Assembly: GCA_934591635.1 (NCBI GenBank)
Contig: CAKTPI010000003.1
Coordinates: 62,001-126,000 of the forward strand
DNA length: 64,000 nt
From: an uncultured Oscillospiraceae bacterium
GTDB taxonomy: Bacteria; Bacillota; Clostridia; Oscillospirales; Oscillospiraceae
Reading direction: 5' to 3'
A program made the position numbers and the translations under genes. Positions 16,746 to 51,888 of this stretch are shown piece by piece; within the stretch, counting starts at the first letter, position 1; every line of letters starts with the position of its first letter. Under the pieces are notes generated by a model that saw nothing but the letters and a program-made list of their open reading frames with translations, had not been told where the DNA came from and did not search any database.

Positions 16746-16938
16746 ATGTTTTCTTATGACAAAAAGCTGCAATACCCGGTGAAAATCAAGAACCCCAACC
16801 CCAATCTGGCCAAAATCATTCTGACCCAATACGGCGGCCCCGACGGCGAACTGGGCGCAAGCCTCCGCTACCTATCCCAACGCTACTCCATGCCCTTCGA
16901 CGAGCTGAAAGGGCTGCTGACGGATATCGGGACCGAAG
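16746..16938 (+). pseudogene. cotJC: cotJC, 5' fragment (interrupted gene, probably restorable)
   Basis: N-terminal 64 codons of the manganese-catalase-like coat protein CotJC (MFSYDKKLQYPVKIKNPNPN ... LKGLLTDIGTE). AAGGAGGG precedes the ATG. It keeps the first metal ligand, Glu35 in DGELGAS. After the 10-bp core at 16929-16938 the frame enters foreign DNA, giving an 83-codon frame with an unrelated tail (ASELFRSGFST...) that stops at 16997. The missing 3' part is intact 34.5 kb away at 51475-51888 and continues in the same phase, so this is a gene split by insertion rather than a decayed one. Confidence 0.93.
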
Positions 16939-18580
16939 CATCGGAACTGTTCCGCTCTGGCTTTTCTACCCCTGGAGTCAGTTTCTTCATTGTGTAAGCC
17001 CATCGAAAAGGTAATAAATGAAGATAGACGCTGATATGTCCGCCGTCCTCTATCACCATTTTTTCGAGCAGTTGGGTGTAAACCTCGTCCTCCGCTTCTA
17101 CGCCGGAGAGGATATCATTGACTGCGGCTTTGGCTGAAACCATCAGCTCCTCTTCCCGCCGGAAAAGCTCTTCCTGCTGGGACACACTGGCAAGGAGCGC
17201 TTGCTGCGCTTCGATGGCGGCATCCTGTTTTTCCCGCTCTGCAAGGTATTTCTCTCTGGATAGTTCCCCGGAGAGGTACAAATCCAGCAGCTTCTCCTTT
17301 TTCACCTCGCAGCTCTCAATCAACCGCCGGGCGGCCTCGGTGCCAAAGCCGGACATATCCTGTTGGATCACCAGCCGAATCGCTTTCAAGAGATCATCTG
17401 TAACCTTACCTTTGTCAAGCCGAAGCTGCCGCATGACCAGGCACATAATATGGATAGCATCCTCATTGCGAATACCTGGGCCGGTGCAGCCTACTTGGTT
17501 TCCAGCAACATCAATACGGGGCTGTCCATTCTTGCTGGCCTCATAACAGCGCCACCCTTTATAGCGGCTCCCGTCCTTTCTGGTTTTGTATCGAGCGACG
17601 TAGCTGGAACCGCAGCAGCCGCATTTGATTTTCCCGGAAAAGGGATAGCGATTTGAGTGTTTGGATTTCCCTTTCATGGAATCGGATCGCTCATCCAGAA
17701 TCCGATTGGCTTCATTGAACAATTCCCTGGAAATGATGGGTTCGTGATGATCCTTGAGAATCACAAATTCCTCCTGCCCTCTGTTGCATTTCTTGTTATG
17801 GGACAGATAATCCGGGGTATAGGTTTTCTTTTGGACCAGATCGCCGCAGTATTTTTCGTTACGGAGCAGCCGCAGGATAACAGTATTAGACCATTCCTTG
17901 ACCCGCATCGGGTAAATTCCCGCCTCCCGCAGCTCCCGGGCAATCACATGAGTGCCCTTCCCCTCTCGAACAAATTTCTGGAAAATCAGCCGTACCACAT
18001 CGGCTCCATCCGAATTGATGGTCATTTTTCCACTGGCAACATCATAGCCCAGCATACTTCTTCCGAATACAACGCCCTGCTCCATCTGCCGTTTCTGACC
18101 CCATTTGACTCGCTCAGAGGTCCTTCGGCTCTCCTCCTGGGCAATGGAGGACATAATGGCCAAACGTAGCTCCGCATCGCCATCCAGGGTGTTGATGTTG
18201 TCATTCATAAAGATAACGCCAACGCCCAATTCCTTCAGTTCCCGGGTATAAGAGATGCTGTCCAGCGTATTTCTGGCAAAACGGGATATTTCCTTGGTCA
18301 CAATCAAATCCAGCTCACCATTCTTGGCGCAGACAATCATCCGATTAAATGCCTTCCGTTTTTTTGTAGTTGTACCTGACAGGCCCTCATCAGCAAACAC
18401 CTCGAAAAGCTCCCAATCCTGGTGGCACTGGATATACTGGCGAAAGAATCGCTGTTGGCTCTCAAAGGAATTGGCTTGATCCTCATTGTCCGTAGAAACA
18501 CGGCAGTAGGCGGCGACACGTTTTTTCGTCTGCTGGAATCGGCGTTCCTGATTCATAAGCTCATAGCGTCCAATCGACAC
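16883..18580 (-). CDS. Large serine recombinase of the cotJC element
   Basis: Resolvase/invertase-type large serine recombinase. 565 aa: N-terminal catalytic domain (KKRVAAYCRVSTDNEDQAN, nucleophile Ser29; SRFARNTLD; MSSIAQEESRRTSERVKWG), recombinase domain (about 175-280), zinc ribbon (KCGCCGSSYVARY ... WRCYEA), a Cys in GCTGPGI, and a coiled-coil (about 410-510). The start is GTG 18580, eight bases after AAGGAGGGG. The 3' end crosses the attL core, so the final 14 residues and the stop codon are antisense cotJC sequence. In the excised circle the frame would continue 42 residues into the other end, stopping at 51345. Confidence 0.93.
   Translation of the reverse strand: MSIGRYELMNQERRFQQTKKRVAAYCRVSTDNEDQANSFESQQRFFRQYIQCHQDWELFEVFADEGLSGTTTKKRKAFNRMIVCAKNGELDLIVTKEISRFARNTLDSISYTRELKELGVGVIFMNDNINTLDGDAELRLAIMSSIAQEESRRTSERVKWGQKRQMEQGVVFGRSMLGYDVASGKMTINSDGADVVRLIFQKFVREGKGTHVIARELREAGIYPMRVKEWSNTVILRLLRNEKYCGDLVQKKTYTPDYLSHNKKCNRGQEEFVILKDHHEPIISRELFNEANRILDERSDSMKGKSKHSNRYPFSGKIKCGCCGSSYVARYKTRKDGSRYKGWRCYEASKNGQPRIDVAGNQVGCTGPGIRNEDAIHIMCLVMRQLRLDKGKVTDDLLKAIRLVIQQDMSGFGTEAARRLIESCEVKKEKLLDLYLSGELSREKYLAEREKQDAAIEAQQALLASVSQQEELFRREEELMVSAKAAVNDILSGVEAEDEVYTQLLEKMVIEDGGHISVYLHLLPFRWAYTMKKLTPGVEKPERNSSDASVPISVSSPFSSSKGME
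16929..16953. other. attL: core plus element arm
   Basis: Core GGGACCGAAG (16929-16938); the element arm GAAGCATCGGAACTGTTCC runs 16935-16953. Its reverse complement matches 18 of 19 bases at 51452-51470. Symmetry places the crossover dinucleotide GG at 16929-16930. Confidence 0.82.
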
Positions 18581-18663
18581 GAAATGCCCCTCCTTTTTAG
18601 TTTTTACAGCAGCTTCAAGAAAGTTGAAGATTGCCAATTTTCTCGTACGTAAAAGCACCGAGC

Positions 18664-18870
18664 CTAAGCCCGGTGCTTGCAGTGTTCCTTGGTATATCGC
18701 TTTTCAATCTCCGTTATACAGCGTTTCGTTTGCGAACAGGTAAGAAGATTCCTTTTTTCCAGGGAATAGAGAATGGATTTCTGCAAATAAAGTAAAAAAT
18801 CCGAGTATTGCGGTTCCATCAGATTGGGAGCCGGTTCTTCAACATATGAATACTCCTTCGGCTTCAGCAA
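18664..18870 (-). CDS. Small protein upstream of the recombinase (candidate accessory/RDF)
   Basis: 68 aa, start TTG 18870 with GGGGAGG six bases upstream. No domain recognised. Centre and C-terminus look helical and basic (YSDFLLYLQKSILYSLEKRN, CITEIEKRYTKEHC), with an acidic, Pro-containing N-terminus. It is transcribed with and 83 bp ahead of the recombinase. Small ORFs in this position accompany many clostridial large serine recombinases; recombination directionality factors of such enzymes are usually small, sequence-diverse and encoded nearby, so that role is possible but unproven. Confidence 0.65.
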   Translation of the reverse strand: MLKPKEYSYVEEPAPNLMEPQYSDFLLYLQKSILYSLEKRNLLTCSQTKRCITEIEKRYTKEHCKHRA

Positions 18871-18934
18871 GGCAGACCTCCCCCTGCCCTATTCTATTGC
18901 CTTGCCAAAAGATTCATGTCTTGCTCAAGAGCAG

Positions 18935-18970
18935 AATCAGCGCTGGGAGTTAATTCTCCCAACGCTGATT
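18935..18970. terminator. Hairpin after the foldase gene
   Basis: 15-bp stem AATCAGCGCTGGGAG / CTCCCAACGCTGATT with one mismatch, between the small ORF's upstream region and the 3' end of the foldase gene. The T-run is poor in both directions. Confidence 0.6.
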
Positions 18971-18984
18971 TCTATGACCCCTGT

Positions 18985-20124
18985 CTAATCTTCGCTTTCA
19001 GCATAAACGATTGCGGAAGATTCCTTCAGCTGTGCCAGTCTGGCCTCCATTTTTGCATTAACGTGCTCGGCGTAAATATCATCCGCCAGTGCAGCAGAAA
19101 GTTCATCAGTCAACGCAACTGCTCCGCCTGGGACGTCCTTCAGGTAATACAAAATATGCACATTGTCGCCAAACACCACCGGCTGGGTATAGTCCCCGGG
19201 AGACTGCATGTCCTGCCCGAAAGCAGCCTGGATAAAGGCGTCTTCCCACAGAATGGAATCCTGGTGGACCTGATAGCCAGTTCTATAGAATTCCTCATCA
19301 TCGAAAGCGGTATCCTCGCCGTACTCAGCAATCAGGGACTGAAAGGATTCCCCCTTGTCAAGGCGGGCATAAATATCATCCGTTTTCTCCTTGACGGAAG
19401 CCAGCCTGGACTCGTCGTCCTCGCCGCTGGCGGAAAGCATGATCTGGAGCACAGCGCGATAACCGTCCGGGCGATACCAGACCTCTCCTCCGCTGGCCAA
19501 AGCAGTTTCAAAGGCTGCAATATCACTTCCGTAGGCACTCTTGCCGCTTTCCACCCGCTGCTCATAGCCCGCCTGAATATCCTGCTGCATAATCTCCGGC
19601 TCCCCGTCCATCAGCCATTGCTCATATTTTTGGGAAGCCATAGCATTGCGGTAGTAGTTCTCCATATACTCCAGCGTATAGCCGCTGCTGGTCATGTAGG
19701 TTTCCGCCAGCTTTTCCGCCGAAAGTCCATCGTCCTCTGCGCCGTCCAGGTAAGATGCGAAATAGCGCTCTGCCTGCTGCAGAAGTGTATCCATGGCTGC
19801 CTGCGCCGAGGCCGTAATGGAAGCATCATCTTCCTCAGACATGTCGTAGCACCCGTGCGCCGTCATATCCTGGGTCAGCAGGCGGTCATCCACCAGCTCA
19901 TGGAGCGCCGAGTCGCGGATAATCTCCAGCACACTGTCATCCGTTCCGTCAATTCCGTATTGGCTCATCCGGCCGCTGACAGAGTCAATCATCGTGTCCA
20001 GCTCGGATTGAAAAATCGCATCTCCATTTACCGTGACCACCGCCGAATCATCTTCTGCCAACGCCGGAACAGAACAGGCAATCACCAATAACACAGCCAG
20101 AACCGCACATATCCATTGTTTCAT
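18985..20124 (-). CDS. Secreted SurA/PrsA-like foldase (peptidyl-prolyl isomerase family)
   Basis: 379 aa with an N-terminal signal (about residues 1-23). The signal contains a lipobox-like VIAC at Cys17 and also an AxA site (PALA before EDD), so lipoprotein and free secretion are both possible. A SurA-N/PrsA-type chaperone domain follows (VVTVNGDAIFQSELDTMIDS). The region about 225-345 resembles a degenerate parvulin domain (YRAVLQIMLSAS, LDKGESFQSLIAEYGED, VVFGDNVHILYYLKDVPG). It probably assists folding of exported proteins such as the secreted glycosidases in this element. Confidence 0.8.
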   Translation of the reverse strand: MKQWICAVLAVLLVIACSVPALAEDDSAVVTVNGDAIFQSELDTMIDSVSGRMSQYGIDGTDDSVLEIIRDSALHELVDDRLLTQDMTAHGCYDMSEEDDASITASAQAAMDTLLQQAERYFASYLDGAEDDGLSAEKLAETYMTSSGYTLEYMENYYRNAMASQKYEQWLMDGEPEIMQQDIQAGYEQRVESGKSAYGSDIAAFETALASGGEVWYRPDGYRAVLQIMLSASGEDDESRLASVKEKTDDIYARLDKGESFQSLIAEYGEDTAFDDEEFYRTGYQVHQDSILWEDAFIQAAFGQDMQSPGDYTQPVVFGDNVHILYYLKDVPGGAVALTDELSAALADDIYAEHVNAKMEARLAQLKESSAIVYAESED

Positions 20125-20190: not shown

Positions 20191-22620
20191 TTACTCGGTA
20201 ACAGTGATGGTGCCAGTCAGGCCGCCAACCTCAATGGTGTATTCACCAGCCTCCAGGGTCAGATCCATCTGAAGCACGCGCCAGCTGCCGCCTTCGACGG
20301 TCATGATCTTCTCGGCCACGACCTCGCCGTTGGCAGTTGCCTGAGCAATGGTGAAGCCGTCCGCGCCGTTGTTGCGCAACAGGGCGTAAATGGTGAAGGG
20401 CTCACCGGCCTTGGCCACGTTGGTGGTGTAGACCACAGTGTTGATGCTGCCGGAGCTGCCTTCTTCTTCACGGACTTCCTGGGCGATGGGCAGGATCAGG
20501 CAAGAGTACTTGAAGTCGGGATCCTGGCCATAGCTCATGCCGAACTGGTAGGTAACCAGCGGATCGCCATAGTTGTTGGGAGAAGCATGGTTGGGATCGT
20601 CCTCCATCAGAGCCTGGACGATCAAACGGACATAGTTGGAAGCACCCTGATCGCCGGCCAGATCCTTCCACTGCGCATCGTCGCTAAGCACATCGCGGGC
20701 GATTTCCTTGTTGATGATGCCGCCAGGCTGACGGTCACCGAAAATCAGGTCAGCATAGATCCAGGGAGAGGTGCCGGTAACAAAGCCACCCTCGGTGGAG
20801 CCGTGGTCAGCAGCCTGGCTGTAAGACAGGTACAGCACGGCATCCGCATTGCTCAGAGTGTAGACAGTGGGTTCGGTGCCATTCAGGGACAGGACGATGG
20901 GCTTGCCCAGATCCTGCGCATCTTCAATGAACAGTTCGGTAGCATCGTTGATGGTACCGTAGTCACCAACCACAACGTCGGCGTCTTCCATATTGTCAAC
21001 AACCGTAGCGCCCTTTTCAGCAAAGTACTTCTTGTAGCCTTCCTCGGCAGCAGCGGAGGAAGCTTCCACATAAACCTTGGCGTCCTTGCTCAGAGGCAGC
21101 AGATCGTTGTCGTTCTTCACCAGGACGGCAGATTCGGCCTGCAGGCGCTCGGTCAGCTCTACCTCGTAGGGATTACGGGCAGCACGCAGCTCTTCGTCAT
21201 TGGTGATGGCAGTCTGGTTGGCAGCCCACTCAGTGCTGGTGCACAGCTCAACAGCCGCGTCAACATCGCAGTAAGGATTCTCAAACAGGCCCTTGTTGAA
21301 CTTGAACCGCAGGATGCGGGTGGCAGCCTGGTCAACATTTGCCTTCTCCACCTCGCCGGTGCTCAAGCCGTCGATAATGGCCTGAGGATAGTTGCTGGAG
21401 GGAGAGCTTTCCCAGTCAGAGTAGTCGCGGATCATGGAGCCGGAGCCGAACATGTCGGTGCCATTCTCCAGAGCGTCATTATACAGCCAGCCGATGGTCT
21501 GCTGACCCAGGTCAACGCCTTCGGAGGTGATGCCGGTCATACGGCCGGGGTTGCTGGGACCGCCGCCCAGGGCCCACCAGTCGGAGACGACAACGCCTTC
21601 GAAGCCCAGGGTGTCGCGCAGATAGCTCATGGTGGCCTTGTCCCACTTAACGTCAACGGTGTTGGAAATGCCGGTGCCGCCGCAGTTGGTCATGACCCAC
21701 TCAGAGCCAGCGGACAGAGCAGCAGTCCAGCCCACCATCCAGTTGTCGAAGTTCTGGGCAACAGAGCGGGCCTTACCAAAGCTGGAATCGCCGCCTCGGC
21801 CGATCCAGTGCTTGGTGCAGGAAGCCAGGCCGTTCTCTTCCAGGCCGCGGATCTCTTCATGCACGATGGAGGCAATGTACTCGGGATTCTCGCCGTACTG
21901 GGCGCCGATTTCGTTGGCATAGGGCTCAAAGGTCACGTGGATACCCACAGCACGCATGGCCTTGCCATAGTAGCAGGCAAGCTCATAAGCCAGCTCAGGG
22001 TCATTGGCGGTGCCGAAGGCCTCGTGAGCCTTGTCGATGTAGCCGCCGAAAGCGTTGTACTCGCGGTCGGAGGTAATGACCATGGGCACAGCCAGGCGCT
22101 CGGCCTCGGCAGCAGCCTGCAGATTATTCAGAGTATTGGTGATGGTCTCGGGTGTGCCGTTCAGGTTGAACAACTGGCAGGTCAGGGCATATTCCTGAAC
22201 CATCTTCACCGCATCCACAAGCTGGGTGTTCACACAGAACAGGAGGCCGACTTCCTCTTCAGGAGTCATCTGGGCGATCAAGTCGGCGACACGGGCATCA
22301 GTGTCAACGCGCCAATCCTCATAAACGTCCAGGGTGCCGTTTTTGTTCATGTCTTTGAACTTCAGGCCGTCCACCTCAAGGATGGGGGTAACGCCTTCCA
22401 CATAGGTCAGCTTGACCTGACCAGTGATCTCGTCTGCTTCGATGGTTGCATAGTCGCAGCGCTGCTCCAGGCGCGCCTTTTCGGCAGCAGCCTCTTCGGA
22501 GTTGGCCGAAGCATTCATCTGGTTCGCGATATCTGCTGCATTTGCGGGCGCTTCTGCAAAGGCGATGCTGATGCAGCCGAGTATCATGACCAGGGCCAAT
22601 AATACGGACAGTTTTTTCAT
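20191..22620 (-). CDS. Secreted glycoside hydrolase family 3 enzyme
   Basis: 809 aa. Signal peptide at 1-23 (KKLSVLLALVMILGCISIAFAEA). A Ca-loop-like motif near residue 85 (DMNKNGTLDVYEDWR) leads into the GH3 barrel: KHWIGRGG near 270, nucleophile region GVVVSDWWALGG near 347. The GH3 C-terminal domain and a fibronectin-like end domain follow (GEYTIEVGGLTGTITVTE). Most likely a beta-glucosidase or related exo-enzyme; substrate not determinable. Start ATG 22620 chosen for its signal peptide and AAAGGAG. No lipobox, sortase motif or S-layer domain. Confidence 0.9.
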   Translation of the reverse strand: MKKLSVLLALVMILGCISIAFAEAPANAADIANQMNASANSEEAAAEKARLEQRCDYATIEADEITGQVKLTYVEGVTPILEVDGLKFKDMNKNGTLDVYEDWRVDTDARVADLIAQMTPEEEVGLLFCVNTQLVDAVKMVQEYALTCQLFNLNGTPETITNTLNNLQAAAEAERLAVPMVITSDREYNAFGGYIDKAHEAFGTANDPELAYELACYYGKAMRAVGIHVTFEPYANEIGAQYGENPEYIASIVHEEIRGLEENGLASCTKHWIGRGGDSSFGKARSVAQNFDNWMVGWTAALSAGSEWVMTNCGGTGISNTVDVKWDKATMSYLRDTLGFEGVVVSDWWALGGGPSNPGRMTGITSEGVDLGQQTIGWLYNDALENGTDMFGSGSMIRDYSDWESSPSSNYPQAIIDGLSTGEVEKANVDQAATRILRFKFNKGLFENPYCDVDAAVELCTSTEWAANQTAITNDEELRAARNPYEVELTERLQAESAVLVKNDNDLLPLSKDAKVYVEASSAAAEEGYKKYFAEKGATVVDNMEDADVVVGDYGTINDATELFIEDAQDLGKPIVLSLNGTEPTVYTLSNADAVLYLSYSQAADHGSTEGGFVTGTSPWIYADLIFGDRQPGGIINKEIARDVLSDDAQWKDLAGDQGASNYVRLIVQALMEDDPNHASPNNYGDPLVTYQFGMSYGQDPDFKYSCLILPIAQEVREEEGSSGSINTVVYTTNVAKAGEPFTIYALLRNNGADGFTIAQATANGEVVAEKIMTVEGGSWRVLQMDLTLEAGEYTIEVGGLTGTITVTE

Positions 22621-22663
22621 ACAGGGGTAACTCCTTTCTTTCGCTGGGGCAAAATATTCATCC

Positions 22664-22711
22664 ACGTGTTAAATACACGTAAACTACTGCTGTCTCGTTA
22701 ATAGTGTAGCA
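22664..22711 (-). promoter_or_regulatory. Extended -10 promoter and palindromic operator of the GH3 gene
   Basis: Minus strand TGCTACACT (22711-22703) is an extended -10 without a good -35. Between it and the gene lies a perfect palindrome ACGTGT-TAAAT-ACACGT (22664-22680), placed about +16 to +32. Likely a repressor or activator site. The 305-bp gap contains no gene. Confidence 0.5.
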
Positions 22712-22925: not shown

Positions 22926-23711
22926 TTAATCAGCCAGCGTTACAGAGCCCCATTCGCTGGGAGCTTTATTAATTTTCTGGGAGCCAGTCCATGCCAGCTG
23001 AGGAATGTACTCAGTTCCGGGGCAGGGATAGCTGATATCGGTAATGGCGAAATTGCAGGAGAGCACATCGCCGGACTGAGGCGCATAGACCTCAATATTC
23101 TTGTTAGAGAAGCAGGCCCAGGGAATCACAGCCTCCCAGGTAAAGCCGGTGGTGGTCATTTCCACGGCGCACTGATAGCCTTCCAGTACGCTCTCGCCGC
23201 CGTCCATGCCAACGCTGACAAAACGTTCGCGGCTTTCCTTGGGCACCATGGAGCGGTCGATGGCAGTATCCCAATAGGGTTCGTCCATCACGAAGTAGAC
23301 CAGGAAGTCCTTGGTGCCATACTCCTCCCGATCAGGATCCGCAGTAGGATCAGTAGAAATATAGAGCTTCAGGTTATCCTCGCCGTCGATGGGCAGCATC
23401 TCAATGGCACCCAAGGGGGTGTCCTCTGTCACCTCAGCAGCCATGTAAAGATTCTCTTCATCCCAGGCCAAGTAAAAGTTTGCAGAGCAGTCGTTCTCGC
23501 CCTGCCAGACAACCACATCCCGAATGACCTGGCTGGCGTCCTTTACGACGGCGGGAGAGTCCAGATTCCATTCGTCCAGCTTGCCATCAATGGTGATCGA
23601 TTCCATCTTGTGCGCAGTAATGCCGGGGCGCGCAACCTCTTCCGCCATCGCAGGGACAGCCAGAGTCAAGGCAGCCATCAAACCGGCTGCAATTCGAAAC
23701 AGTTTGTTCAT
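22926..23711 (-). CDS. Secreted CBM9-like carbohydrate-binding protein
   Basis: 261 aa with a signal peptide (NKLFRIAAGLMAALTLAVPAMA). The rest is one CBM9/DOMON-like domain: ITIDGKLDEWNLDSPAV at the start, FYLAWDEENLYMAAEVTEDT in the middle, IYIST-type strand LKLYISTDPTADPD, and a terminal WGSVTLAD. Such domains bind sugar ends and are usually attached to enzymes; here it stands alone. It is clearly paralogous to the protein at 43688 (shared DGxLxEW, AWDEENLY, STDPxADPDR, IDRSMV, YPCPG/DLPCPG). Start ATG 23711 has AAAGGAG eight bases upstream. No anchor motif. Confidence 0.82.
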   Translation of the reverse strand: MNKLFRIAAGLMAALTLAVPAMAEEVARPGITAHKMESITIDGKLDEWNLDSPAVVKDASQVIRDVVVWQGENDCSANFYLAWDEENLYMAAEVTEDTPLGAIEMLPIDGEDNLKLYISTDPTADPDREEYGTKDFLVYFVMDEPYWDTAIDRSMVPKESRERFVSVGMDGGESVLEGYQCAVEMTTTGFTWEAVIPWACFSNKNIEVYAPQSGDVLSCNFAITDISYPCPGTEYIPQLAWTGSQKINKAPSEWGSVTLAD

Positions 23712-23915
23712 TTTGTGTGCTCCTTTCAATTGCGGAATATCACTTTATGCCATTTTCCGTGCCTATATCATATCATGATTTTTAAGAACGGAAGCACGAG
23801 AATTCCACACAACCCTAGGAAAATCCTGCACGATGCTCTCAAAGCGAGAAAATCGCAAACAAAAGCCGTACAAAATTGGACGGGCGCAGGCCCGTCCCAT
23901 TGCGTGTATCGGAGA

Positions 23916-24096: not shown

Positions 24097-24210
24097 AGTT
24101 CAGCGTTGCCTGATTCCCTATGAAAATTCGGTATAAAACGCGTGCGTTTCGAGCAATCTCATTTAAAATGGTAAAATCCGACATTGCATACTGAAAATTT
24201 CAATACTATG

Positions 24211-24239
24211 CTGAATTTTCCAGTCAGTTGTGCTATACT
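24211..24239 (+). promoter_or_regulatory. Extended -10 promoter of the YesN-like regulator
   Basis: TGCTATACT (24231-24239) is an extended -10 with a weak -35 CTGAAT (24211-24216) at 17 bp. Confidence 0.6.
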
Positions 24240-24279
24240 AATTAGGAGATGTAAACGAATCGAAAGGAGCATGTCGAAA

Positions 24280-38334: not shown

Positions 38335-39228
38335 TTATGATGCGGTGACAGCGCCGCTCATTTGGCCGGAAATCAGGTACTTGCCCATAAAAATGTACAA
38401 TACCAACACCGGCAAAGCGAGAATCAGGGAACCAGCCATCTGAACATTGAATTCAGCAGCCATGGTGCCGGCCAATTCGTTCAGAGCAATGGTTGCGGGC
38501 TTGGAATCGTAGCCGCCCAGCACCAGCGCAAACAACATCTCATTCCAGATGGAGGTACACTGGAAGACGAATACGGTGATGGTGGCAATTCTCGTATTTG
38601 GCACCACGATCTTGCGGTAAATCTGCCAAACCCCGTTGCCATCGATCATGGCCTGACGGATCAGCGCATCCGGCACATCTGCATAATAGCCCCGCATCAT
38701 CACAGTACACATGGGCATACCGAACACCGTATGCACCATCACCAGGCCCCAGATATTATCATATAGATCAAGAGCGTTGACAGTTTGCAGCAGCGGGATC
38801 AGGATTGCCTGAAAGGGCAGATAAGTAGCCGCAACCAGGGCAATAAAGAATACATTGTTCAGCCGGAATTTCCATTTGCTCAATGCATATGCGCACACGG
38901 AACCCAGAAATACAGAGCCCGCCGCGCCCAGCAGCGTCACCGCAAGACTCGTCAGCAGAGGCACCCCTAACTCCTCCATGGCGCTGGCGTAACCCTCCAG
39001 CGTCCAGGTGGACGGGGGCGTAATGGGAGTAGAAGTCATCACCTCACTGTTGGTTTTGAAGGAGGTCATGACAGTGCCCCAAAACGGAAGCATGTAGAAA
39101 ACCAGAAAAACGACCATAATGGCGTAATACAGCATATGCAGAACCGTTGTGTGCCATCTCGGCTTGATCCGCACGGTCTGCGCCTGCTGGGCCTCCCGGG
39201 TGCGTTCGATGCTTATGTTATCCTGCAT
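38335..39228 (-). CDS. Sugar ABC transporter permease (MalG-like)
   Basis: 297 aa, six membrane segments, with the EAA-loop equivalent QAMIDGNGVWQIYRKIVVP and a short N-terminal cytoplasmic tail. Second CUT1 permease. The gene is 1 bp from the MalF-like gene, ensuring equal synthesis. Confidence 0.94.
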   Translation of the reverse strand: MQDNISIERTREAQQAQTVRIKPRWHTTVLHMLYYAIMVVFLVFYMLPFWGTVMTSFKTNSEVMTSTPITPPSTWTLEGYASAMEELGVPLLTSLAVTLLGAAGSVFLGSVCAYALSKWKFRLNNVFFIALVAATYLPFQAILIPLLQTVNALDLYDNIWGLVMVHTVFGMPMCTVMMRGYYADVPDALIRQAMIDGNGVWQIYRKIVVPNTRIATITVFVFQCTSIWNEMLFALVLGGYDSKPATIALNELAGTMAAEFNVQMAGSLILALPVLVLYIFMGKYLISGQMSGAVTAS

Positions 39229-39229
39229 A

Positions 39230-40261: not shown

Positions 40262-40323
40262 AGGCGAACCCTCCGTTCTTTCTGGGGAGGAGACAGAGTT
40301 TTCCCCTCTGTCTCCTGCCTATT

Positions 40324-43687: not shown

Positions 43688-44500
43688 TCAATCGACAAAG
43701 GTCAGAGTTCCCCACAGGCTGGGGTTCTCGTCCACATTGTAGGCAGAGGGGGTACGGTCCTTGCCGGAAAGGTCGGCGGAGGACTGCATACGCAGGCTGT
43801 GGATACCCGGGCAGGGCAGATCAACGTCCAGCACAGACAGATCGAAGCCGATGCTCTCGCCGGCCTGAGGGACCAGCTGCGGGATTTGGTCGTTGGAGAA
43901 GTTGTGAAGGGGAATCTTGCTTTCCCACACGATGCCGCCGTCAATAGAAACGATAGCCGCCTCGTAGTCGTCGAACACCTGCTCGTCACCATACTCGCCC
44001 TGGGTCTCCCAGCCCTTGGTATCGGCTACCATGGAACGATCAATGTAGTTGAAGAAATCATATTCATCCTTATACTTGTCGGCGGACTGCACCAACCGCC
44101 AATCGGTCGAATCATAAGCAGTGCGGTCAGGATCCGCGTCGGGATCGGTGCTCAGGAACAGGATAACAGCGTCCAGCTCGTCCAGAGGGAAGCCTTCCCG
44201 GTAGACCAGAGGGGTATCGTCCAGGATCTTCATGGCGAAGTAGAGGTTTTCCTCATCCCACATAGCGTACAGCTCCACAGAGCAATCCGCTTCGCCGTCC
44301 CAGTGTTCGATTTGGTCAATGATCTGGCTGTCGGAATCAATACGCAAGCATTTGGTGGTGTCCCACTCGCTCAGGTCGCCGTCAATGACCACCTCACCGG
44401 CTTTGGGGGCTTCCAAGTTTTTCTCGGAATATGCCTGCGCGTTGGTGGCAAAGCCAAGCACCACTGCCAACGCCAGCAGCATGGAGACGATTTTTTTCAT
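43688..44500 (-). CDS. Secreted CBM9-like carbohydrate-binding protein
   Basis: 270 aa, signal peptide to about residue 23 (GFATNAQAYS). A single CBM9-like domain: VVIDGDLSEWDTTKCL, AMWDEENLYFAMKILDDTP, FLSTDPDADPDR, VDLPCPG, and terminal LWGTLTFVD. Paralogue of the protein at 22926. AAGGAGG lies before ATG 44500. It is the first gene of the minus-strand carbohydrate operon; the upstream -10 TATAAT (44563-44558) lacks a good -35, which suits activator control. Confidence 0.82.
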   Translation of the reverse strand: MKKIVSMLLALAVVLGFATNAQAYSEKNLEAPKAGEVVIDGDLSEWDTTKCLRIDSDSQIIDQIEHWDGEADCSVELYAMWDEENLYFAMKILDDTPLVYREGFPLDELDAVILFLSTDPDADPDRTAYDSTDWRLVQSADKYKDEYDFFNYIDRSMVADTKGWETQGEYGDEQVFDDYEAAIVSIDGGIVWESKIPLHNFSNDQIPQLVPQAGESIGFDLSVLDVDLPCPGIHSLRMQSSADLSGKDRTPSAYNVDENPSLWGTLTFVD

Positions 44501-44669
44501 AGTCAATTTCCTCCTTAAAAATGTGCGGGGTCGGGTATTCCCGCTTCTTTCGGCTTTATTATAAATTCGTTCTTCTCCGCACACCCAAAAGGATTCGGCA
44601 CCCTTTTATGCAAAAATACAGCAAACCTCCTAAAAATAGGAATATCCAACACATTACTGAAGAATATCC

Positions 44670-44717
44670 AGCACAAAGCGGTTTGTGCTATGTTTTTTCG
44701 AACGGTTATGATATAAT
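44670..44717 (+). promoter_or_regulatory. Palindrome and extended -10 promoter of the YesM-like gene
   Basis: Perfect AGCACAAA-GCGG-TTTGTGCT palindrome (44670-44689) immediately upstream of an extended -10 TGATATAAT (44709-44717) that lacks a -35. This layout suggests a regulator bound in the -35 region. The 44501-44813 gap holds no gene. Confidence 0.6.
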
Positions 44718-44813
44718 CACTTCGTATCAGTCAAGTGGGGCTCATCTCTACTGTGACGTCCCAGTATCCCATAATAGGAAATATATAAATAACGCCGCAT
44801 TGGAGAGTTCGAT

Positions 44814-46574
44814 ATGCGTCTAAGTGTTAAAATGATCCTGCTTTTCTCGGTTATCATGGCGATCTCAATCTTTTTTCTCTCTTCCTACTCGATACAATCG
44901 TCAGTGGATGGGGCAGCAAAATACACCGCCTCACGCTTCGCAAACATGAGCACCAGCATCAGCCTGGACATCGGGCAGGATATCGACATGAAGCGTTTGA
45001 CCCTCAGTACGCTGTCCGGCGACGCCTCTTTTCTCTCCGCTGTGAATCAGTTTGTCCGTGACGACAGTGATGAGCAGAAAATGGGGCTGATGGCCCGCGC
45101 GGCCGCCTTGCAGCAGATGTATCAATCGCCGTTGGTGGAGCAGTATTCCTGTGTAGCGTTCTTCAATACCGACGGAAAATATTTTGCCAGCACCATGAAC
45201 AAGGATAATGCCTCCCCGGACACCAGCACCCTGGTGAAGGCGCTGGGCACCAGTCCCCGGGAGCTGATTCTCTCTCCCTGCCAGAATCTGTTCTCTCACG
45301 ATCCCCGCGTTCAGGTATATGGTCTGATTGAGCCGCTGTGGTATCACGACAAGCTCCTGGGCTATCTGGCCGCACTGGATGAATACAGTTCCATTGAGCA
45401 TATCATGGATTTTGTAGACAACAGCGATGAGGTGATGGTACAAGCAGTTTTTAATGACGGCTCCCTGTTCTATGCCAGCAGAGAAGGTATGCCGGATTTC
45501 CCTCTGGATATGGTTGAAAATGAATTAACCAGTTGGACGGATTCAGAAACTCAGACAATTTATGACGTGCGCCACACCTATATCCCCTCCGTCCAGCTCC
45601 ATCTTTTCCTTGCACAGGATCAGGCAGTTACCATTCAGGGAAACAGAATTATTCGCCAAAACATGATCCGCCGGGCTTTGGTGATCATGCTTCCAGCCTT
45701 GCTGGTAATTACGCTGCTCTCCCTTGGGCTGACCCGCTCTATTCGCCGTCTGACTCAAAAAGTACGGCGCACCCCATCCGATGAAATCTGGCTGAACGGC
45801 TCCGCTGCCCTGCAAGCGCTGAACCAAACCGTCACCTCTCCCACCGATAAAGAAATCCACACGCTGGAGCTTGCCTATAACCATATGATGACCCAACTTC
45901 GGAACAGTGCCGTCAACGAGCTTGCTCTGCGGGAAGGCGCGCTTCAAGCTCAGCTCAGTGCTTTGCAAACCCAGATCAACCCCCACTTTATCTACAACAC
46001 CCTGAACATTATCTCCGCAAAGTCTATGGAGAGCGGCAACTTGGAAGTCATCGAAATCTGCGACCAGTTTGCTTCCATGCTCCGTTACTCCACCGACACC
46101 CGCTCCCGCGTTGCCACATTACAGGAGGAAATTGAAAATATCTTCGACTATCTTATGCTGGCCAAGGCCCGGTACGAGGAAAATCTGGAATTTGTCATTG
46201 ACGTGCCCGAGGCCCTGCATCACATCATAGTGCCAAAGCTTACCCTACAACCCCTGGTGGAAAACGCCATAACCCACGGCTTCGATGGCAAGAATATCCT
46301 GCGCAAGCTCTCCATCATTGGCACTGTTACCTCCGCGAATCTGATTTTAACCATTCGAGACAACGGCACCGGCTTCTCTGATGAAATGCTGGAAAGCCTG
46401 CGCCGCCGTATTCGGGAAATTGACAGCGGTAACGTCTCCATCGAAAAATCCGGCGGTCATATCGGCCTCATTAACACCTGCCTGCGCCTGCACTATTACA
46501 GCAAGGGCCGCATGCATATCACCATCCATAACGACAACGGTGCCGTCATTACCCTGACCATGCCTGTCGCTTGA
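44814..46574 (+). CDS. YesM-type sensor histidine kinase
   Basis: 586 aa. Two membrane segments (about 7-29 and 285-308) enclose a Cache-like extracellular sensor. Then a HAMP-like region, the His_kinase domain with phospho-acceptor His in QTQINPHFIYNTLNIIS (near 391), and an ATPase domain with VENAITHGF, IRDNGTGF and GGHIGLINTCLRLHY. The partner regulator is encoded at 24280, same strand, 19 kb away. A nearby palindrome suggests regulated expression. Confidence 0.93.
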   Translation: MRLSVKMILLFSVIMAISIFFLSSYSIQSSVDGAAKYTASRFANMSTSISLDIGQDIDMKRLTLSTLSGDASFLSAVNQFVRDDSDEQKMGLMARAAALQQMYQSPLVEQYSCVAFFNTDGKYFASTMNKDNASPDTSTLVKALGTSPRELILSPCQNLFSHDPRVQVYGLIEPLWYHDKLLGYLAALDEYSSIEHIMDFVDNSDEVMVQAVFNDGSLFYASREGMPDFPLDMVENELTSWTDSETQTIYDVRHTYIPSVQLHLFLAQDQAVTIQGNRIIRQNMIRRALVIMLPALLVITLLSLGLTRSIRRLTQKVRRTPSDEIWLNGSAALQALNQTVTSPTDKEIHTLELAYNHMMTQLRNSAVNELALREGALQAQLSALQTQINPHFIYNTLNIISAKSMESGNLEVIEICDQFASMLRYSTDTRSRVATLQEEIENIFDYLMLAKARYEENLEFVIDVPEALHHIIVPKLTLQPLVENAITHGFDGKNILRKLSIIGTVTSANLILTIRDNGTGFSDEMLESLRRRIREIDSGNVSIEKSGGHIGLINTCLRLHYYSKGRMHITIHNDNGAVITLTMPVA

Positions 46575-47002: not shown

Positions 47003-47737
47003 TTATTCTTTAACGTAGGTCACAATATCTCCCATTGGGTTCCGTTCCGTTGCACCAGAATAGGTATCCGCAGTCTGATCAATGGCAGTATCTTCATGAC
47101 CAATCAACAAAACGGCTACGGCCGTATAATCTTCGGGGATTCCCAAGGCCGTACGATAATCTTCCTGCTTTTCGCCATTCAGGGCTATGGTGGGAGAAGA
47201 TATGATCTTGCTTCCGTATCCCAGCAGTCGGGCGGTAACAGACATGTTCTGACACGCAAGGCCTGCGTTAAGTTCAGCACCCGTCGAACAGGAAATCACA
47301 ATCGCTAACGGGGCATCGGCAATTCCGGCTTTCACCGCAGATGTATTCCGTGTGGCAAAAGCGTTATCATCGGCGGAGGGGGCATTTCCAGCGTCCGCGC
47401 CGCTTTCAGGGGCTCCTGCCGGAACTGCGCCGGTTGGTATAGCATTGCTCATGTCGTCTGCGATCTGCTGCAAAACAGAAGAACTTGTGATCACCGAAAA
47501 ATGCCAGGGCTGTTGATTCATGGCGCTTGGAGCATTGACTCCTGAAAGGAGGATGGTTTCAATGTCATCCTCAGAAACAGCTTCATCCGTGAAATACTGC
47601 GTAGTTGGGATGTCCTTCACCAATTCCACCGCTTCGTTGACCGAGTTCTCCACACCGCCGCTTTGCTGGCCGCAGCCGGTCAACAGACAGAGTAATAGCA
47701 GCAGTAATCCCGCTGTGTGTAAAAGATGCTTTTTCAT
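47003..47737 (-). CDS. Exported nitroreductase-family lipoprotein
   Basis: 244 aa. Signal peptide with a clear lipobox (LLTGC, Cys22) followed by a Gln/Gly-rich linker. The rest is a nitroreductase fold: LLSGVNAPSAMNQQPWHFSV (flavin-binding region), then a low-complexity insert (PTGAVPAGAPESGADAGNAP), CSTGAELNAGLACQNMSVTA and a C-terminal GIPEDYTAVAVLLIG. Most family members are cytoplasmic FMN enzymes, so a surface-anchored form is uncommon and its reductant is unclear. It is the last gene of the CotH group by strand, 60 bp after CotH. Confidence 0.85.
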   Translation of the reverse strand: MKKHLLHTAGLLLLLLCLLTGCGQQSGGVENSVNEAVELVKDIPTTQYFTDEAVSEDDIETILLSGVNAPSAMNQQPWHFSVITSSSVLQQIADDMSNAIPTGAVPAGAPESGADAGNAPSADDNAFATRNTSAVKAGIADAPLAIVISCSTGAELNAGLACQNMSVTARLLGYGSKIISSPTIALNGEKQEDYRTALGIPEDYTAVAVLLIGHEDTAIDQTADTYSGATERNPMGDIVTYVKE

Positions 47738-47797
47738 GTACGCTCCTCCATTGTCATGATGTAAGATATTTGTAGCTTTCCGCTGATAGTGACTTTA

Positions 47798-49897
47798 TTA
47801 TCGTTTTTTGGGTCTTCTGCGATACAAAACCGCAAAAAGCATCGCCGCGGCAAAAAAAAGCAGAGACACTCCGTACAGGATCAGATTCCCTGCGGACGCT
47901 GCCGAGGAGGTACCTCCAGCGCCGCCGGGGAAGCTACCCATAGACGGTCTGCCATCGGAATTGCCGTTGCCGCCATTCTGTGCGTTTTCGTCCGTTTGCT
48001 GGGTATTGTCAGAGGCATTCTGCTTTCCTCCTGCAAATTGGGAGAAATCGAATCCGTTTGGCGGTTCGCCACCGAACTGAGATGCGTCAAATCCATCCTG
48101 CATTTCACCGCCGAACTGGAACGGGTCGAAATCAACGGACGGTGTATTTTCAGACCCGGCGAACACACCCGGCGCAGTCTGCGTTTCAGACGTGCCTTGT
48201 GCCACGTCCGGCGCATCTGAGACATTTTCAGAGGCCGTCGGCGCATTGAAGCCAAACCCACCGCCGGTATTCATACTGCCCATCACGCTGATATCCAGCG
48301 CGGACGCATCCACCAACGCATCACTGCCGCGCTGCTCCGCTTCGGTGGAAGGAATCGTCCCGTCAAGCTGCCCTTGGATGGATTCGCCCCGCAGCTTCAC
48401 CACTTGATAGAGGGTATCGACCGCTGTCAGATATTCATCATAGGAATAGAACGCAGTAGGGTCTGTCTCCACAAGCTCGTCGATCTGGCCGCGCACCCGC
48501 TCATAGAAAGCGTCAAATCCGCCGCCATTGATGTATTCACTCACGAGCTGCTGCAAATAGGCATAATACTGCCTATGGTATGTTTCATTCTCCATCAGCG
48601 TGTCGAAGAAATCTGTGCCGGAAAACGCATTGTCGATGGCATCGTTTACAACGTCGGTAGCGTCACTGCCGCTCCCCATGCCGCCGAGGGAAAGGTTATA
48701 ATCCCAAGGAATCAGATTCAGCCTTCCTCCAGCTTCATAGAGATAGTAGTTGTGCGCCATCATGCCGGACAGGCTGTCCTCATTGACGGAGAATACATGG
48801 ACAGCCATATAGCGAAGCAGGTTGTCGATGTCCATATAGGCATCAAGATCATTGCCCTCCGAAATGTTTTTAAGGGCGGTGACCACACGCTTTTGGTCGG
48901 TCTTCGTGGTCTTTGTGATCTCGCCGTCCCAGATGGTTTCATAGCTGTCCAACTCATCATCCACATAATTCAGATCCGCGCCGCCTCCTCCCATGGAGAA
49001 GCCGCCCATGCCGCCTCTAAAATTGAAATTCATTGACGGACGTTCCCCAGAATCAGTCGGGGGCTCCGCCGAGTTTTCACTCCTCGAACCCGACTTTTGA
49101 GATGGGGCAAAGGCATCATCTGACATCTGGCCGGGAGCGGCGGGAGGATTCGCCTGATTGGAATTTCCCTGCGTATCCGGCGGGGGCACGTTGCCAAAAT
49201 CCATGTTATCAAAGTCGATGTTGCCAAAGTCGATATCACCGAAATCTTTTCCGCCGCCGAAATTCATGCTGTCCGGCTTGTAGAGTTCTCCGCTTTGCGC
49301 CCCGTAGTTGCGGAGCATAAAGCTGTCCTCCACCGCTTCCAGCGCGAGGTAAACGCCCCAATACTCGCCATTGACGGAGATTTTGGCGTAATTGTAAAGA
49401 GAGGCATCCGCTCCGAGATACTGGTACATATCGTAGATCAGCGCCTCTTTCATATTGGTGGCATCGGCGTAGTTATTGTTCAGGATCAGCTTGTCCAATC
49501 CGAAGCAGGTCTGTCCGTCTACGTAATGGTCAAATTCCAGTTTGAAGCTGTAGCGGTCGGTAGTGGGATCGCTGGCGATGGAGGTCAGGCTGGTGTTGCC
49601 TTTAGGTCGAATGGCGACGCGGTAAAAGGCTGTGCCGTTGACTTCTACATCGCACTGGTAATATTCCTCCGCCGTGGCGTTGACCAGCATATCATTCCAG
49701 TCCGCGTCATCCATCAAAAAATTGACCGTCAGAATGCTGCCAGTATCGAAGAGTTCCGTTTCATACTCCATGGAAATGCCCGTATCTCCCATTGCTGCTG
49801 CGATTTGACTGGAAAACGCAACTGCACAAAGGCATAGACAGACAGCGACCGCCATGACCACAGCAATGATTTTCGTGATGTGTTTATGAGCGATCAT
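47798..49897 (-). CDS. CotH-family secreted protein kinase homologue, membrane-anchored
   Basis: 699 aa. Signal/anchor at about 8-31. CotH kinase landmarks: RVAIRPKGNTS, DRYSFKLEFDHY, LDKLILNNNYAD, GVYLALEAVEDSFMLRNYG, GELYKPD and NLIPWDYNLSLGG. Two low-complexity Asn/Gln/Pro/Gly-rich regions (about 225-295 and 545-665) and a C-terminal membrane segment with a basic end (YRRRPKKR). CotH of B. subtilis is a spore-coat protein kinase; homologues in clostridia also occur outside spore contexts, commonly next to VTC-domain and DUF4956 genes as here. GGAGG precedes the ATG. Confidence 0.9.
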   Translation of the reverse strand: MIAHKHITKIIAVVMAVAVCLCLCAVAFSSQIAAAMGDTGISMEYETELFDTGSILTVNFLMDDADWNDMLVNATAEEYYQCDVEVNGTAFYRVAIRPKGNTSLTSIASDPTTDRYSFKLEFDHYVDGQTCFGLDKLILNNNYADATNMKEALIYDMYQYLGADASLYNYAKISVNGEYWGVYLALEAVEDSFMLRNYGAQSGELYKPDSMNFGGGKDFGDIDFGNIDFDNMDFGNVPPPDTQGNSNQANPPAAPGQMSDDAFAPSQKSGSRSENSAEPPTDSGERPSMNFNFRGGMGGFSMGGGGADLNYVDDELDSYETIWDGEITKTTKTDQKRVVTALKNISEGNDLDAYMDIDNLLRYMAVHVFSVNEDSLSGMMAHNYYLYEAGGRLNLIPWDYNLSLGGMGSGSDATDVVNDAIDNAFSGTDFFDTLMENETYHRQYYAYLQQLVSEYINGGGFDAFYERVRGQIDELVETDPTAFYSYDEYLTAVDTLYQVVKLRGESIQGQLDGTIPSTEAEQRGSDALVDASALDISVMGSMNTGGGFGFNAPTASENVSDAPDVAQGTSETQTAPGVFAGSENTPSVDFDPFQFGGEMQDGFDASQFGGEPPNGFDFSQFAGGKQNASDNTQQTDENAQNGGNGNSDGRPSMGSFPGGAGGTSSAASAGNLILYGVSLLFFAAAMLFAVLYRRRPKKR

Positions 49898-49909
49898 GTG
49901 CTTCCTCCG

Positions 49910-50581
49910 TTACGACAGATATTCGCCGTTGTAGCTGACAAGGGTCGCGTTCTCGACGCCGGGCAGACGGGAGATCAGGTTGACAAAGCTGGTGGACGCA
50001 TCCTTGGTGCGCAGTTCCGCAGTCAACTCGATTCCGGCAGTAGTAATGGTTTTGGATTTGACGATGTAGTGCTCGGTATCTTTGCTGAGAATATCCAACA
50101 CGGCGTTTTCTGCTTCCTCGTCTGCGCAGTTCATCACAAGGATGTAGGGATTGTTGTGAATTTTGCGGTTGGCGAACAGCAGAAGGATCACACCGATGAT
50201 GGCGGATCCGATGACAGCCAGCTGGATCATGCCTGCACCAATGACAATGCCCACCGCCAGCGACCAGAACAGGAACACGATCTCCACTGGCTCCTTGATA
50301 GCGGTACGAAAACGGACGATGGAGAGCGCACCTACCATGCCCAGGGACAGCACCACATTGGATGTGACCGCTATAATGACCAGTGTGGTGACAAGGGACA
50401 GGCCAACAAGCGTCAGCGCAAAACCGCTGGAATACATGACCCCGGTCAGCGTTTTCTTATAGATCATAAAAATATACAAACCGATTACCAGCGCAACTGC
50501 CAGGCCGATAACGGTGTCAAGAATCGAGAACTCGGAAATGTTCTCTAAAAAACTGGACTTGAAAATGTCATTAAAGCTCAT
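49910..50581 (-). CDS. DUF4956 membrane protein
   Basis: 223 aa with about four membrane segments (roughly 20-38, 45-68, 95-125) and the conserved MVGALSIVRFRTAIKEP. A soluble C-terminal domain follows (NPYILVMNCADEEAENAVLD). Function unknown. Family members co-occur with VTC-domain and CotH proteins. ATG 50581 has GGGAG upstream; the open frame further upstream overlaps the VTC gene and is rejected. Confidence 0.85.
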   Translation of the reverse strand: MSFNDIFKSSFLENISEFSILDTVIGLAVALVIGLYIFMIYKKTLTGVMYSSGFALTLVGLSLVTTLVIIAVTSNVVLSLGMVGALSIVRFRTAIKEPVEIVFLFWSLAVGIVIGAGMIQLAVIGSAIIGVILLLFANRKIHNNPYILVMNCADEEAENAVLDILSKDTEHYIVKSKTITTAGIELTAELRTKDASTSFVNLISRLPGVENATLVSYNGEYLS

Positions 50582-50612
50582 GTTCGTTTCTCCCTCACCA
50601 TCAATATTTAAT

Positions 50613-51305
50613 TTAACCAAACCGGCGGCATGCACCGTATTTTGAGAATGCCTGTTGGCGAAGCTCACCTGATTGAAGCAGACATCGAATGATTTCCGGC
50701 AAAAAGGCATCAAATTTTACCTCTAAAATGATATCGCCGGGTGCGTCTGCTGCGCTGATGTCAGGAATTATACCGCCCGCAAAATCTCTTTGAAACAGAC
50801 TAGTTCGGATACTGGAATCAAAGGTCACACGAACATTCCCAACACTGTAAACATACGGTTCCCGCACATAGGATACCAGCACACGGGGTCTGAGCTGCTG
50901 TGTTTTCATTTTACAGTACAGCTCCCGAACCAGCGATTCCGGGTGCTCCAACATCCACGGCCCCGGTGAGTCAAGAATTCGTTGATAATCTTCTGTTGTC
51001 AATGGTGCATCGATCTTCATGCATAAATCATTGTGCTTGATCTTTTTCTCCAGCGCGATGAACGAAAGGTCATCGTTGTAATAACGGATACGAAATTTCT
51101 CTCTTTTTGGCAAACCGTTAATTTTTTCACGTAGCGCTTTGTCCCCGTAGTTATCAAAATAAATACTTCGGATCGTATAAAGTCCGTCTACACCCGCGTG
51201 CGGATCGCACTTCATAACAGTCTTAAGCCGCTGTCTGAGCGCCTGGCGATCGGCTGAGTTAATTTGATATTTCAACTCATGCCGGTAGTTCCCGGAAAGC
51301 TCCAT
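50613..51305 (-). CDS. VTC-domain (polyphosphate polymerase-like) protein
   Basis: 230 aa cytoplasmic VTC tunnel-fold domain: YRHELKYQINSADRQALRQR, YTIRSIYFDNYGD, REKFRIRYYN, ALEKKIKHNDLCMKI, RPRVLVSYVREPYVY, and ILEVKFDAFLPEII. In yeast this domain makes polyphosphate; the bacterial role is not established. It is the first gene of the VTC-DUF4956-CotH operon and the rightmost cargo gene. The 169 bp upstream to the attR core hold no other gene. Confidence 0.88.
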   Translation of the reverse strand: MELSGNYRHELKYQINSADRQALRQRLKTVMKCDPHAGVDGLYTIRSIYFDNYGDKALREKINGLPKREKFRIRYYNDDLSFIALEKKIKHNDLCMKIDAPLTTEDYQRILDSPGPWMLEHPESLVRELYCKMKTQQLRPRVLVSYVREPYVYSVGNVRVTFDSSIRTSLFQRDFAGGIIPDISAADAPGDIILEVKFDAFLPEIIRCLLQSGELRQQAFSKYGACRRFG

Positions 51306-51451
51306 TGTAATCCCCCTTTTTTCGTTGTAAAGTACAAATCAATTTTAAAGGGGCACCCTAAAATGTACTTGAAAAGCATAATAAAAATTCAGGCATGAAA
51401 CCAGCGCCTTAGCACCAAGAGCACTGGACTCGTCCACATGTCTGATACATT

Positions 51452-51484
51452 GGAACATTTCCGATGCTTCTCTGGGGACCGAAG
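51452..51484. other. attR: element arm plus core
   Basis: Element arm GGAACATTTCCGATGCTTC (51452-51470), four bases, then core GGGACCGAAG (51475-51484). Crossover GG predicted at 51475-51476. The joined attP would be a 48-bp palindrome with 18 of 19 arm bases paired. Confidence 0.82.
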
Positions 51485-51888
51485 AGCTGGGGCATTTGGA
51501 GATGATTGGGGCGATCGTGCATCAGCTGACGCGGAATTTAAAGGATAGTCAGATGAAGGATCCGGCGTTTGCACCCTATTTTGTGGATCATACTGCCGGC
51601 GTTTACCCCGCTTCGGCAGCGGGGACACCGTGGAGCGCGGCAACCATGCAGGTGACGGGAGATCCGATTACAGATTTGACAGAGGACCTGGCGGCGGAAC
51701 AAAAAGCTAGAACGACTTACGACAATATTTTACGGGTCAGTGACGACCCGGATGTAAACGATGTGATTAAATTCCTTCGAGCGAGAGAAATTGTGCATTT
51801 TCAGCGTTTTGGTGAAGCAATCCAATTACTTCGTGACAAACTGAATCAAAAAAATGTTTACTTTATGAATCCTGCGATTGATATTTGA
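51475..51888 (+). pseudogene. cotJC: cotJC, 3' fragment (interrupted gene, probably restorable)
   Basis: Codons 62-198 of CotJC, starting at GGG ACC GAA GAG in the core. It contains four of the five manganese-catalase-type ligands: Glu65 and His68 (GTEELGHLEM), Glu136 (DLAAEQKARTTYD) and His169 (IVHFQRFGEA), plus VDHTAGVYP and MQVTGDPITDLTEDL. The frame is intact to its stop. No proper start or ribosome-binding site exists here, so it should be silent until the element is excised and it rejoins 16746-16938. Confidence 0.94.

Follow-up and report, generated by a model that had tools for sequence, protein, structure and literature searches.

Programmed restoration of a gene by DNA excision has, in the accounts of spore-forming bacteria that we draw on, been described for a handful of genes and strains, with one element per gene. 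Among the closest described systems is the skin element, which interrupts sigK in Bacillus subtilis and Clostridioides difficile, carries a large serine recombinase inside the element, and restores a mother-cell gene when it is excised. The descriptions used here place the skin recombinase gene spoIVCA of B. subtilis and the separate directionality factor CD1234 of the C. difficile element under the control of sigma-E and SpoIIID (PMC5025042). The gin element of Bacillus cereus is described as a non-phage island of 28.6 kb in the sporulation gene gerE, with a short direct repeat at the junction; serine recombinase activity is accompanied there by an additional factor, GirX (PMC5595907). Likewise, SPbeta in spsM, vfbin in spoVFB, vrin in spoVR and yin in yabG are presented as mobile elements in mother-cell genes that are excised by their own recombinases (PMC4191935, PMC10747680). 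Here, we analyze a stretch of 64,000 nucleotides from an uncultured Oscillospiraceae bacterium (contig CAKTPI010000003.1, positions 62,001-126,000 of the forward strand; hereafter the window), in which the gene cotJC is interrupted at codon 62. We consider it likely, with a probability of roughly 0.8, that a mobile island was put into this codon by a large serine recombinase, and that its excision in the mother cell restores CotJC while the germ line keeps the island.

Results

The cotJC gene is present in the window as two pieces on the + strand: a 5' piece with codons 1-62 at positions 16746-16930, up to the putative crossover GG, and a 3' piece running from codon 62 to the stop codon at positions 51475-51888. 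The sequence GGGACCGAAG is found on the + strand at 16929-16938 and 51475-51484 and nowhere else in the window. These 10-bp direct repeats are the cores of the left and right attachment sites; the first GG of the left core is the presumed crossover dinucleotide, and, measured from GG to GG, the inserted element occupies positions 16931-51476 (34,546 bp). Joining 16746-16938 to 51485-51888 yields an uninterrupted CotJC of 198 residues, which matches the Pfam family Mn_catalase at 1.4e-56. The joined protein contains E35, E65, H68, E136 and H169, all of which align with solved manganese catalases and which we take to be the metal ligands. A first-pass annotation of the window had claimed two in-phase repeat copies flanking the split, a 198-residue frame on joining and five ligand-type residues, and all three claims hold. 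When not joined, the 5' piece reads on into the element and stops after 83 codons, and the 3' piece offers no possible start codon in its frame before a TTG at 51496, which is already within the piece. The G+C content is 0.531 in the element, and 0.491 and 0.486 in the flanks.

On the element side of each end lies one inverted-repeat arm, GAAGCATCGGAACTGTTCC at 16935-16953 on the left and GGAACATTTCCGATGCTTC at 51452-51470 on the right (both read on the + strand), and the two arms are complementary at 18 of 19 positions. This layout, with an arm at each end, is that of the attP site of a serine integrase. Searching 50 genomes for the rejoined attP with up to three mismatches gave a match in 23, most of them attR. 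In one locus (L027; G027:C35:20289), an attP-like site with two mismatches was found beside one of two site-2-type recombinases (site 2 is codon 62, see below); it lies between two elements, at a distance of about 9 kb from the 5' piece of cotJC, which may mean that two elements are present in tandem.

The left end of the element is directly abutted by its own serine recombinase gene on the - strand (open reading frame as listed 16883-18658, probable start 18562). The Pfam domains Resolvase, Recombinase and Zn_ribbon_recom lie in a single protein within the range of large serine recombinases (450-700 residues), which also matches the integrase family phrog_95; its match to the NCBIfam model of the fdxN recombinase XisF falls below the cut-off of that model. 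The recombinase frame extends 46 nt beyond the putative crossover into antisense cotJC, and hence the tail of the protein would change once the element leaves; in the excised circle, the tail encoded by 16883-16930 would be swapped for another one. Reading past the crossover was observed for 36 of 48 site-2 recombinases. A toggle by the recombinase C-terminus has reportedly been seen for SprA.

Next to the recombinase gene, at 18664-18870 on the - strand, lies a gene for a conserved small protein of 68 residues (profile match 2.7e-23), which, judging from its position and conservation, is a candidate directionality factor for excision. No match to it was found in Pfam, NCBIfam or PHROG. The small protein is present in 73 of 85 loci sets and, in 68 of these 85, lies within 700 nt of a recombinase, a count that refers to site-2 recombinases. 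A database search returned 173 homologues without a Pfam domain, and, among the 120 matches listed, those that bear a name are called "hypothetical". The recombinases of sites 3 and 4 have small upstream reading frames of their own, which by eye are alike within each group. At 18651-18678 on the - strand, overlapping the end of the small gene and upstream of the recombinase gene, a hairpin AAGCACCG-N10-CGGTGCTT is followed by T's and resembles a terminator or attenuator separating these genes.

The first-pass annotation had pointed to relatives with an intact cotJC as a comparison, and an empty site was indeed present in all five relatives examined: their cotJC is uninterrupted, the CotJC proteins are 80 to 86% identical, and CwlD, CotJAB and CotJC are encoded in the same order as in the window, with RadA and XerD nearby. 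The recombinase, the family-2 hydrolase, CotH and the VTC protein of the element were looked for in the corresponding stretch of the five relatives, and none of these four was found. The interrupted gene belongs to the sporulation programme, being part of a cotJAB-cotJC operon beside cwlD and encoding a CotJC of the Mn_catalase type. Directly upstream of cotJC, the CotJA and CotJB domains (Pfam) are fused in one reading frame (16255-16743, + strand). Upstream of this frame, at 16231-16257 (+ strand), AC-N16-CATAGAATG is a putative promoter that resembles a sigma-K promoter, or a sigma-E -10 element, in the consensus forms that we presume for these factors.

Related elements were collected with the window recombinase from one genome per species, keeping the best 80 of 104 loci and adding four loci from viral contigs. 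CotJC pieces were present in 78 of these 84 loci; the other six are L019, L033, L082 and L083, plus L036 and L068, both of which are cut at a contig end. Whole-genome searches found CotJC pieces in 79 of the 79 genomes of this recombinase set. A joining script, which required GG followed by an acidic pair so that degraded junctions would drop out (one record, G071, did and was joined later), joined 54 of the 55 site-2 records with both pieces in frame at the GG of codon 62. This number becomes 53 when genome G004 is discounted, as there the 3' contig passes through the site unbroken, with a different sequence. Among the joins that start at codon 1 to 3, 45 of 49 encode at least 180 residues, and the remaining four, all shorter, have a further interruption at site 3. 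The 23 elements that lie wholly inside a locus record measure 2,958 to 34,546 bp, and another one (G053) spans about 72 kb by genome coordinates. Isolates with a split cotJC include Fusibacillus kribbianus, with an element of 3.8 kb, and Hespellia stercorisuis DSM 15480. The proposal of the first-pass annotation, that cotJC carries an element of the skin and SPbeta kind with a large serine recombinase, is supported by the domains of the recombinase, the attachment-site anatomy, the empty site and the same arrangement in many genomes; the scale described below (several sites, recombinase lineages and elements per gene) lay beyond its reach. Two loci have an unusual layout: L215 (G128) contains two cotJC 3' pieces (codons 59-197) in tandem, about 3.5 kb apart, and in G522:C2:792876-820939 a near full-length cotJC precedes several partial CotJC-like pieces, all in a stretch of 28 kb.

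In draws from three families (see below), the ends of the CotJC pieces cluster at four places in the gene: site 1 at codons 31-32 (core GGNGGNCC), site 2 at codon 62 (core GGGACCGAAG in the window), site 3 at codons 134-136 (core GCAGCAGA) and site 4 at codons 172-175 (core TTCGGTGAAGCA). These sites adjoin the codons of E35, E65/H68, E136 and H169, respectively. When 54 coding sequences (9 uninterrupted and 45 joined) were aligned, the local maxima of nucleotide conservation included codons 31, 63, 136 and 172, and the probability that four random places reach the mean conservation of the four sites is 0.00015. Conservation also peaks at codons 7, 46, 97 and 190, and site 4, when placed at codon 173, ranks no higher than the top 22%. 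Taken together, the four sites are the most conserved DNA of the gene and flank ligand codons, which is what one would expect of targets for integrases in need of a dependable site. Counting one recombinase per genome and site within 600 bp of a junction, we found 16, 79, 11 and 4 for sites 1 to 4. On a FastTree tree of these recombinases, the site labels require four changes, against a minimum of three and a mean of 29.5 for shuffled labels: sites 3 and 4 form one clade each, site 2 forms two, and site 1 takes three changes versus the rest, although individual placements are unsure owing to long branches. The recombinase lineages are thus largely site-specific.

How common split genes are was estimated from three draws of 120 genomes (the families of G014, G004 and G072), in which distant long CotJC matches below 45% identity, i.e., paralogues, were dropped, leaving 271 CotJC-bearing genomes. 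Both sides of at least one site were listed in at least 82 of these (27, 28 and 27 per family draw), a count that may include single breaks at contig ends. Among the matches listed, 147 of the 271 genomes had full-length CotJC only, and six of the 82 split genomes also had a full-length copy. Seven of the 82 (G014, G002, G045, G072, G011, G015 and G031) are shared with the recombinase set. Both sides were seen for sites 1 to 4 in at least 35, 44, 16 and 1 genomes; site 4 was mostly visible from one side (22 genomes, among the matches listed). Misassembly and contig ends were considered as causes of the pieces and rejected: the boundaries cluster at four places, the arms and cores are in register, and a control gene is rarely broken. 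The control, a polyprenyl synthetase gene in the flank of the window (55459-56364), was found broken in G302 and G265, 2 of 117 genomes from the G004 family draw; in G302, residues 43-114 are encoded on one contig and residues 115-299 on another, which may reflect a split or a contig break. Single cases in which contig ends mimic splits (G004 and G438) were discounted. In a phylum-wide draw, CotJC was matched in 99 of 149 genomes, at least five of which showed, by eye, both sides of a site (G241, G494, G517, G559 and G572). Splits are few among the matches listed for this draw, and the habit is therefore concentrated in the gut families.

Several elements can reside in one cotJC gene. The isolate Intestinibacillus massiliensis (locus L072, genome G071) carries three: its four cotJC pieces follow one another in order along the same strand of a single contig, across about 76 kb and with gaps of about 24, 43 and 7 kb, and joining them yields an open CotJC of 214 residues. 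Another genome (G397) has four ordered pieces on one contig over about 48 kb, and the join is open over the 195 codons examined. Overall, 25 of the 30 genomes tried gave joins that are open across all their junctions, including 17 of the 22 with two or three sites; these joins took in at most 60 codons of the last stretch, so that the C-termini were checked in part.

Upstream of the small gene, a sigma-E-like pattern, ATA-N16-18-CATAnAnT, occurs in 36 of 68 sequences, compared with 0.31 in shuffles. Because these 68 sequences are related, we also counted one per cluster, which gave 5 of 31 versus 0.14 in shuffles. A composite with the SpoIIID-like GG.ACAA, picked after the data had been seen, occurs in 11 of the 31 upstream clusters versus 0.4 in shuffles. 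The sigma and SpoIIID consensus forms used for this scoring are those we take to apply. For the recombinases of sites 1, 3 and 4, sigma-E-like sites were found in 2 of 31 cases and a looser composite match in one more; hence, the promoter argument rests on site 2.

With respect to cargo, the element encodes, from left to right, a SurA/PpiC-like protein (18985-20124, - strand), a glycoside hydrolase of family 3 (20191-22665, -), a CBM9-like protein (22926-23729, -), a response regulator with an AraC-type DNA-binding domain (24184-25746, +), a glycoside hydrolase of family 2 of the beta-galactosidase type (25836-29384, -), an AMP-binding enzyme (29216-30787, -), a weak match to MBOAT (31912-33432), a second AMP-binding enzyme (33474-34937) and a phosphopantetheine carrier (34942-35229). 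These are followed by a sugar ABC transporter (ATPase, two permeases and binding protein) accompanied by two further family 3 glycoside hydrolases (35284-43663, -), a CBM9-like protein (-) with a sensor histidine kinase (+) (43688-46574), and a group comprising a nitroreductase, a CotH kinase, DUF4956 and a VTC domain (47003-51305, -). In total, the cargo includes three glycoside hydrolases of family 3 and one of family 2. Pfam searches detected no phage structural, packaging or lysis genes among the 21 larger element proteins, and no relaxase, coupling-protein or mating-pair families among the element proteins scanned, small reading frames being covered in part in both searches. PHROGs revealed nothing phage-like beyond the integrase among ten proteins (nine clear or possible element genes and the small reading frame at 46925). 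We therefore classify the element neither as a prophage, for lack of structural, packaging or lysis genes among the proteins scanned, nor as an integrative conjugative element, for lack of any conjugation family among them. A scan of ten proteins from seven small elements identified AbiE pairs, a type I methyltransferase with an Mrr-like partner, a DUF4143 ATPase (PADLOC candidate PDC-S01), a ParE-like toxin, a hybrid kinase and a short-chain dehydrogenase. A 4.5-kb site-2 element with an AbiE pair is also present outside the gut families, in a Pelotomaculum metagenome-assembled genome (L061).

Discussion

The integration is visible in the anatomy of the element ends, and the steps that would follow are modelled on the known systems. 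The recombinase would integrate the island into the conserved ligand codons, and growing cells would carry it quietly while cotJC is split and switched off. The small protein and the recombinase would be expressed in the mother cell, and in many elements the sigma-E/SpoIIID-like promoter may confine expression to this cell. Once the small protein is made, recombination between attL and attR would generate the joined cotJC, and the excised circle would be lost together with the mother cell. Because cotJC is needed only in a dying cell, the insertion would cost little, provided that excision works.

A wider reading, towards which we lean with less assurance, is that cotJC is assembled at the DNA level in gut Clostridia. 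Recombinases of at least five lineages (two of them at site 2) would use the four docking sites in the ligand blocks, and one to three islands with defence, toxin-antitoxin or sugar-use genes would each be removed by their own recombinase in one coordinated mother-cell programme. The gene of the spore-coat catalase would then be a shared, almost cost-free harbour for mobile DNA.

Several observations weigh against the explanation that we favor. The small gene of the window has no recognizable sigma-E, sigma-K or SpoIIID-like site upstream; the composite promoter, itself a pattern chosen with the data in view, is absent from 20 of the 31 upstream clusters. An exact search of viral contigs for the rejoined attP gave no matches, and no free circle was evident among the 50 genomes searched for attP. 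At least 8 of the 79 genomes of the recombinase set have another full-length CotJC copy, and a second cotJC may exist elsewhere in the source genome of the window. Five multi-junction joins failed, one (G391) because it hits a stop codon and four because they are incomplete. In G291:C1, the last (third) cotJC piece is encoded on the other strand, as an inversion would leave it, so that simple excision would leave it unjoined. The five relatives do not share the right flank of the window. Finally, most genome pairs differ much less in the recombinase than in cotJC, from which it follows that the recombination module passes from one species to another and inserts repeatedly at the same codon; many insertions are thus possibly recent, which makes an intact joined frame weak evidence for use.

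This last point also serves the explanation that fares second, namely, that ordinary islands attach at conserved DNA within cotJC and simply kill a dispensable gene, with no programmed excision. The spread of the recombination module is more recent than the divergence of the host genes, and the pieces may be intact because the insertions are young; moreover, 45 of 120 genomes in one draw have no CotJC at all. We nevertheless regard this explanation as unlikely. In three families, between a quarter and a third of the CotJC-bearing genomes are split, with frames intact across one to three junctions, which repeated gene death would hardly explain, and the promoters in many of the elements resemble the mother-cell type. 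The ratio of nonsynonymous to synonymous substitution rates (dN/dS) of the split copies has medians of 0.22 and 0.20 for the two pieces in the 14 of 1,176 pairs with a measurable synonymous distance in both, but we dropped it as proof of selection, as most of that divergence probably predates the insertions. In the five pairs in which the recombinase and cotJC are both measurably diverged, the values are 0.04 and 0.11, which argues against a dead gene.

It is still less probable that excision occurs at random in part of the growing cells, as a phase switch rather than a developmental step. The yin element in yabG is described as excised at all culture time points (PMC10747680), and the lack of a recognizable mother-cell promoter in the window would suit such behavior. 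Against this stand the sigma-E/SpoIIID-like promoters of many relatives; furthermore, a return to the OFF state would need re-insertion, and loss of the circle would cure the lineage. A chimeric assembly, for which the non-syntenic right flank might speak, has next to no probability: the attachment-site anatomy is precise, and chance or misassembly is untenable because the site is empty in five relatives and the same type of junction recurs at the same codon in dozens of independent genomes, isolates among them.

If mother-cell excision is confirmed, gene restoration would be routine in common gut bacteria, with several islands per gene and different recombinases acting in the same cell. The elements would provide a natural set of orthogonal groups of recombinase, attachment site and candidate directionality factor, a means of testing directly why mobile DNA inserts into genes that serve a dying cell alone, and a route by which defence or sugar-use islands spread among gut Clostridia. 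They also carry a warning for annotation, since a split cotJC will often be called absent or broken.

A literature search on the titles and opening lines of abstracts of the papers listed, with subscription journals and preprints outside its scope, found no published intervening element in cotJC. The C. difficile phage phi027 was considered and set aside, as it is described as adjacent to a cotJC homologue, not within it (PMC11222575). The skin element differs in that its target encodes a sigma factor, whereas cotJC encodes a coat enzyme and is entered at four sites; moreover, the cotJC element has no prophage genes among the proteins scanned, and its small protein matches no family in the databases searched. 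For gin, the account used here describes three recombinases, one site and one gene in few Bacillus (PMC5595907), whereas the cotJC elements are spread over many species and use four sites, and most of their junctions are abutted by a single recombinase. SPbeta, vfbin, vrin and yin are prophages or prophage-like, are described in single or few strains, and, in the accounts cited, none is in cotJC (PMC4191935, PMC10747680). In Anabaena, too, developmental excision of the nifD, fdxN and hupL elements is described as restoring a gene in a terminal cell (PMC4191935). This is, however, another organism with another programme. There, nifD, fdxN and hupL are not known to contain more than one element each. 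In sum, the cotJC elements would work like skin and gin; what is new is the target gene, the four sites, the several recombinase lineages, the presence of up to three elements per gene, and the wide spread.

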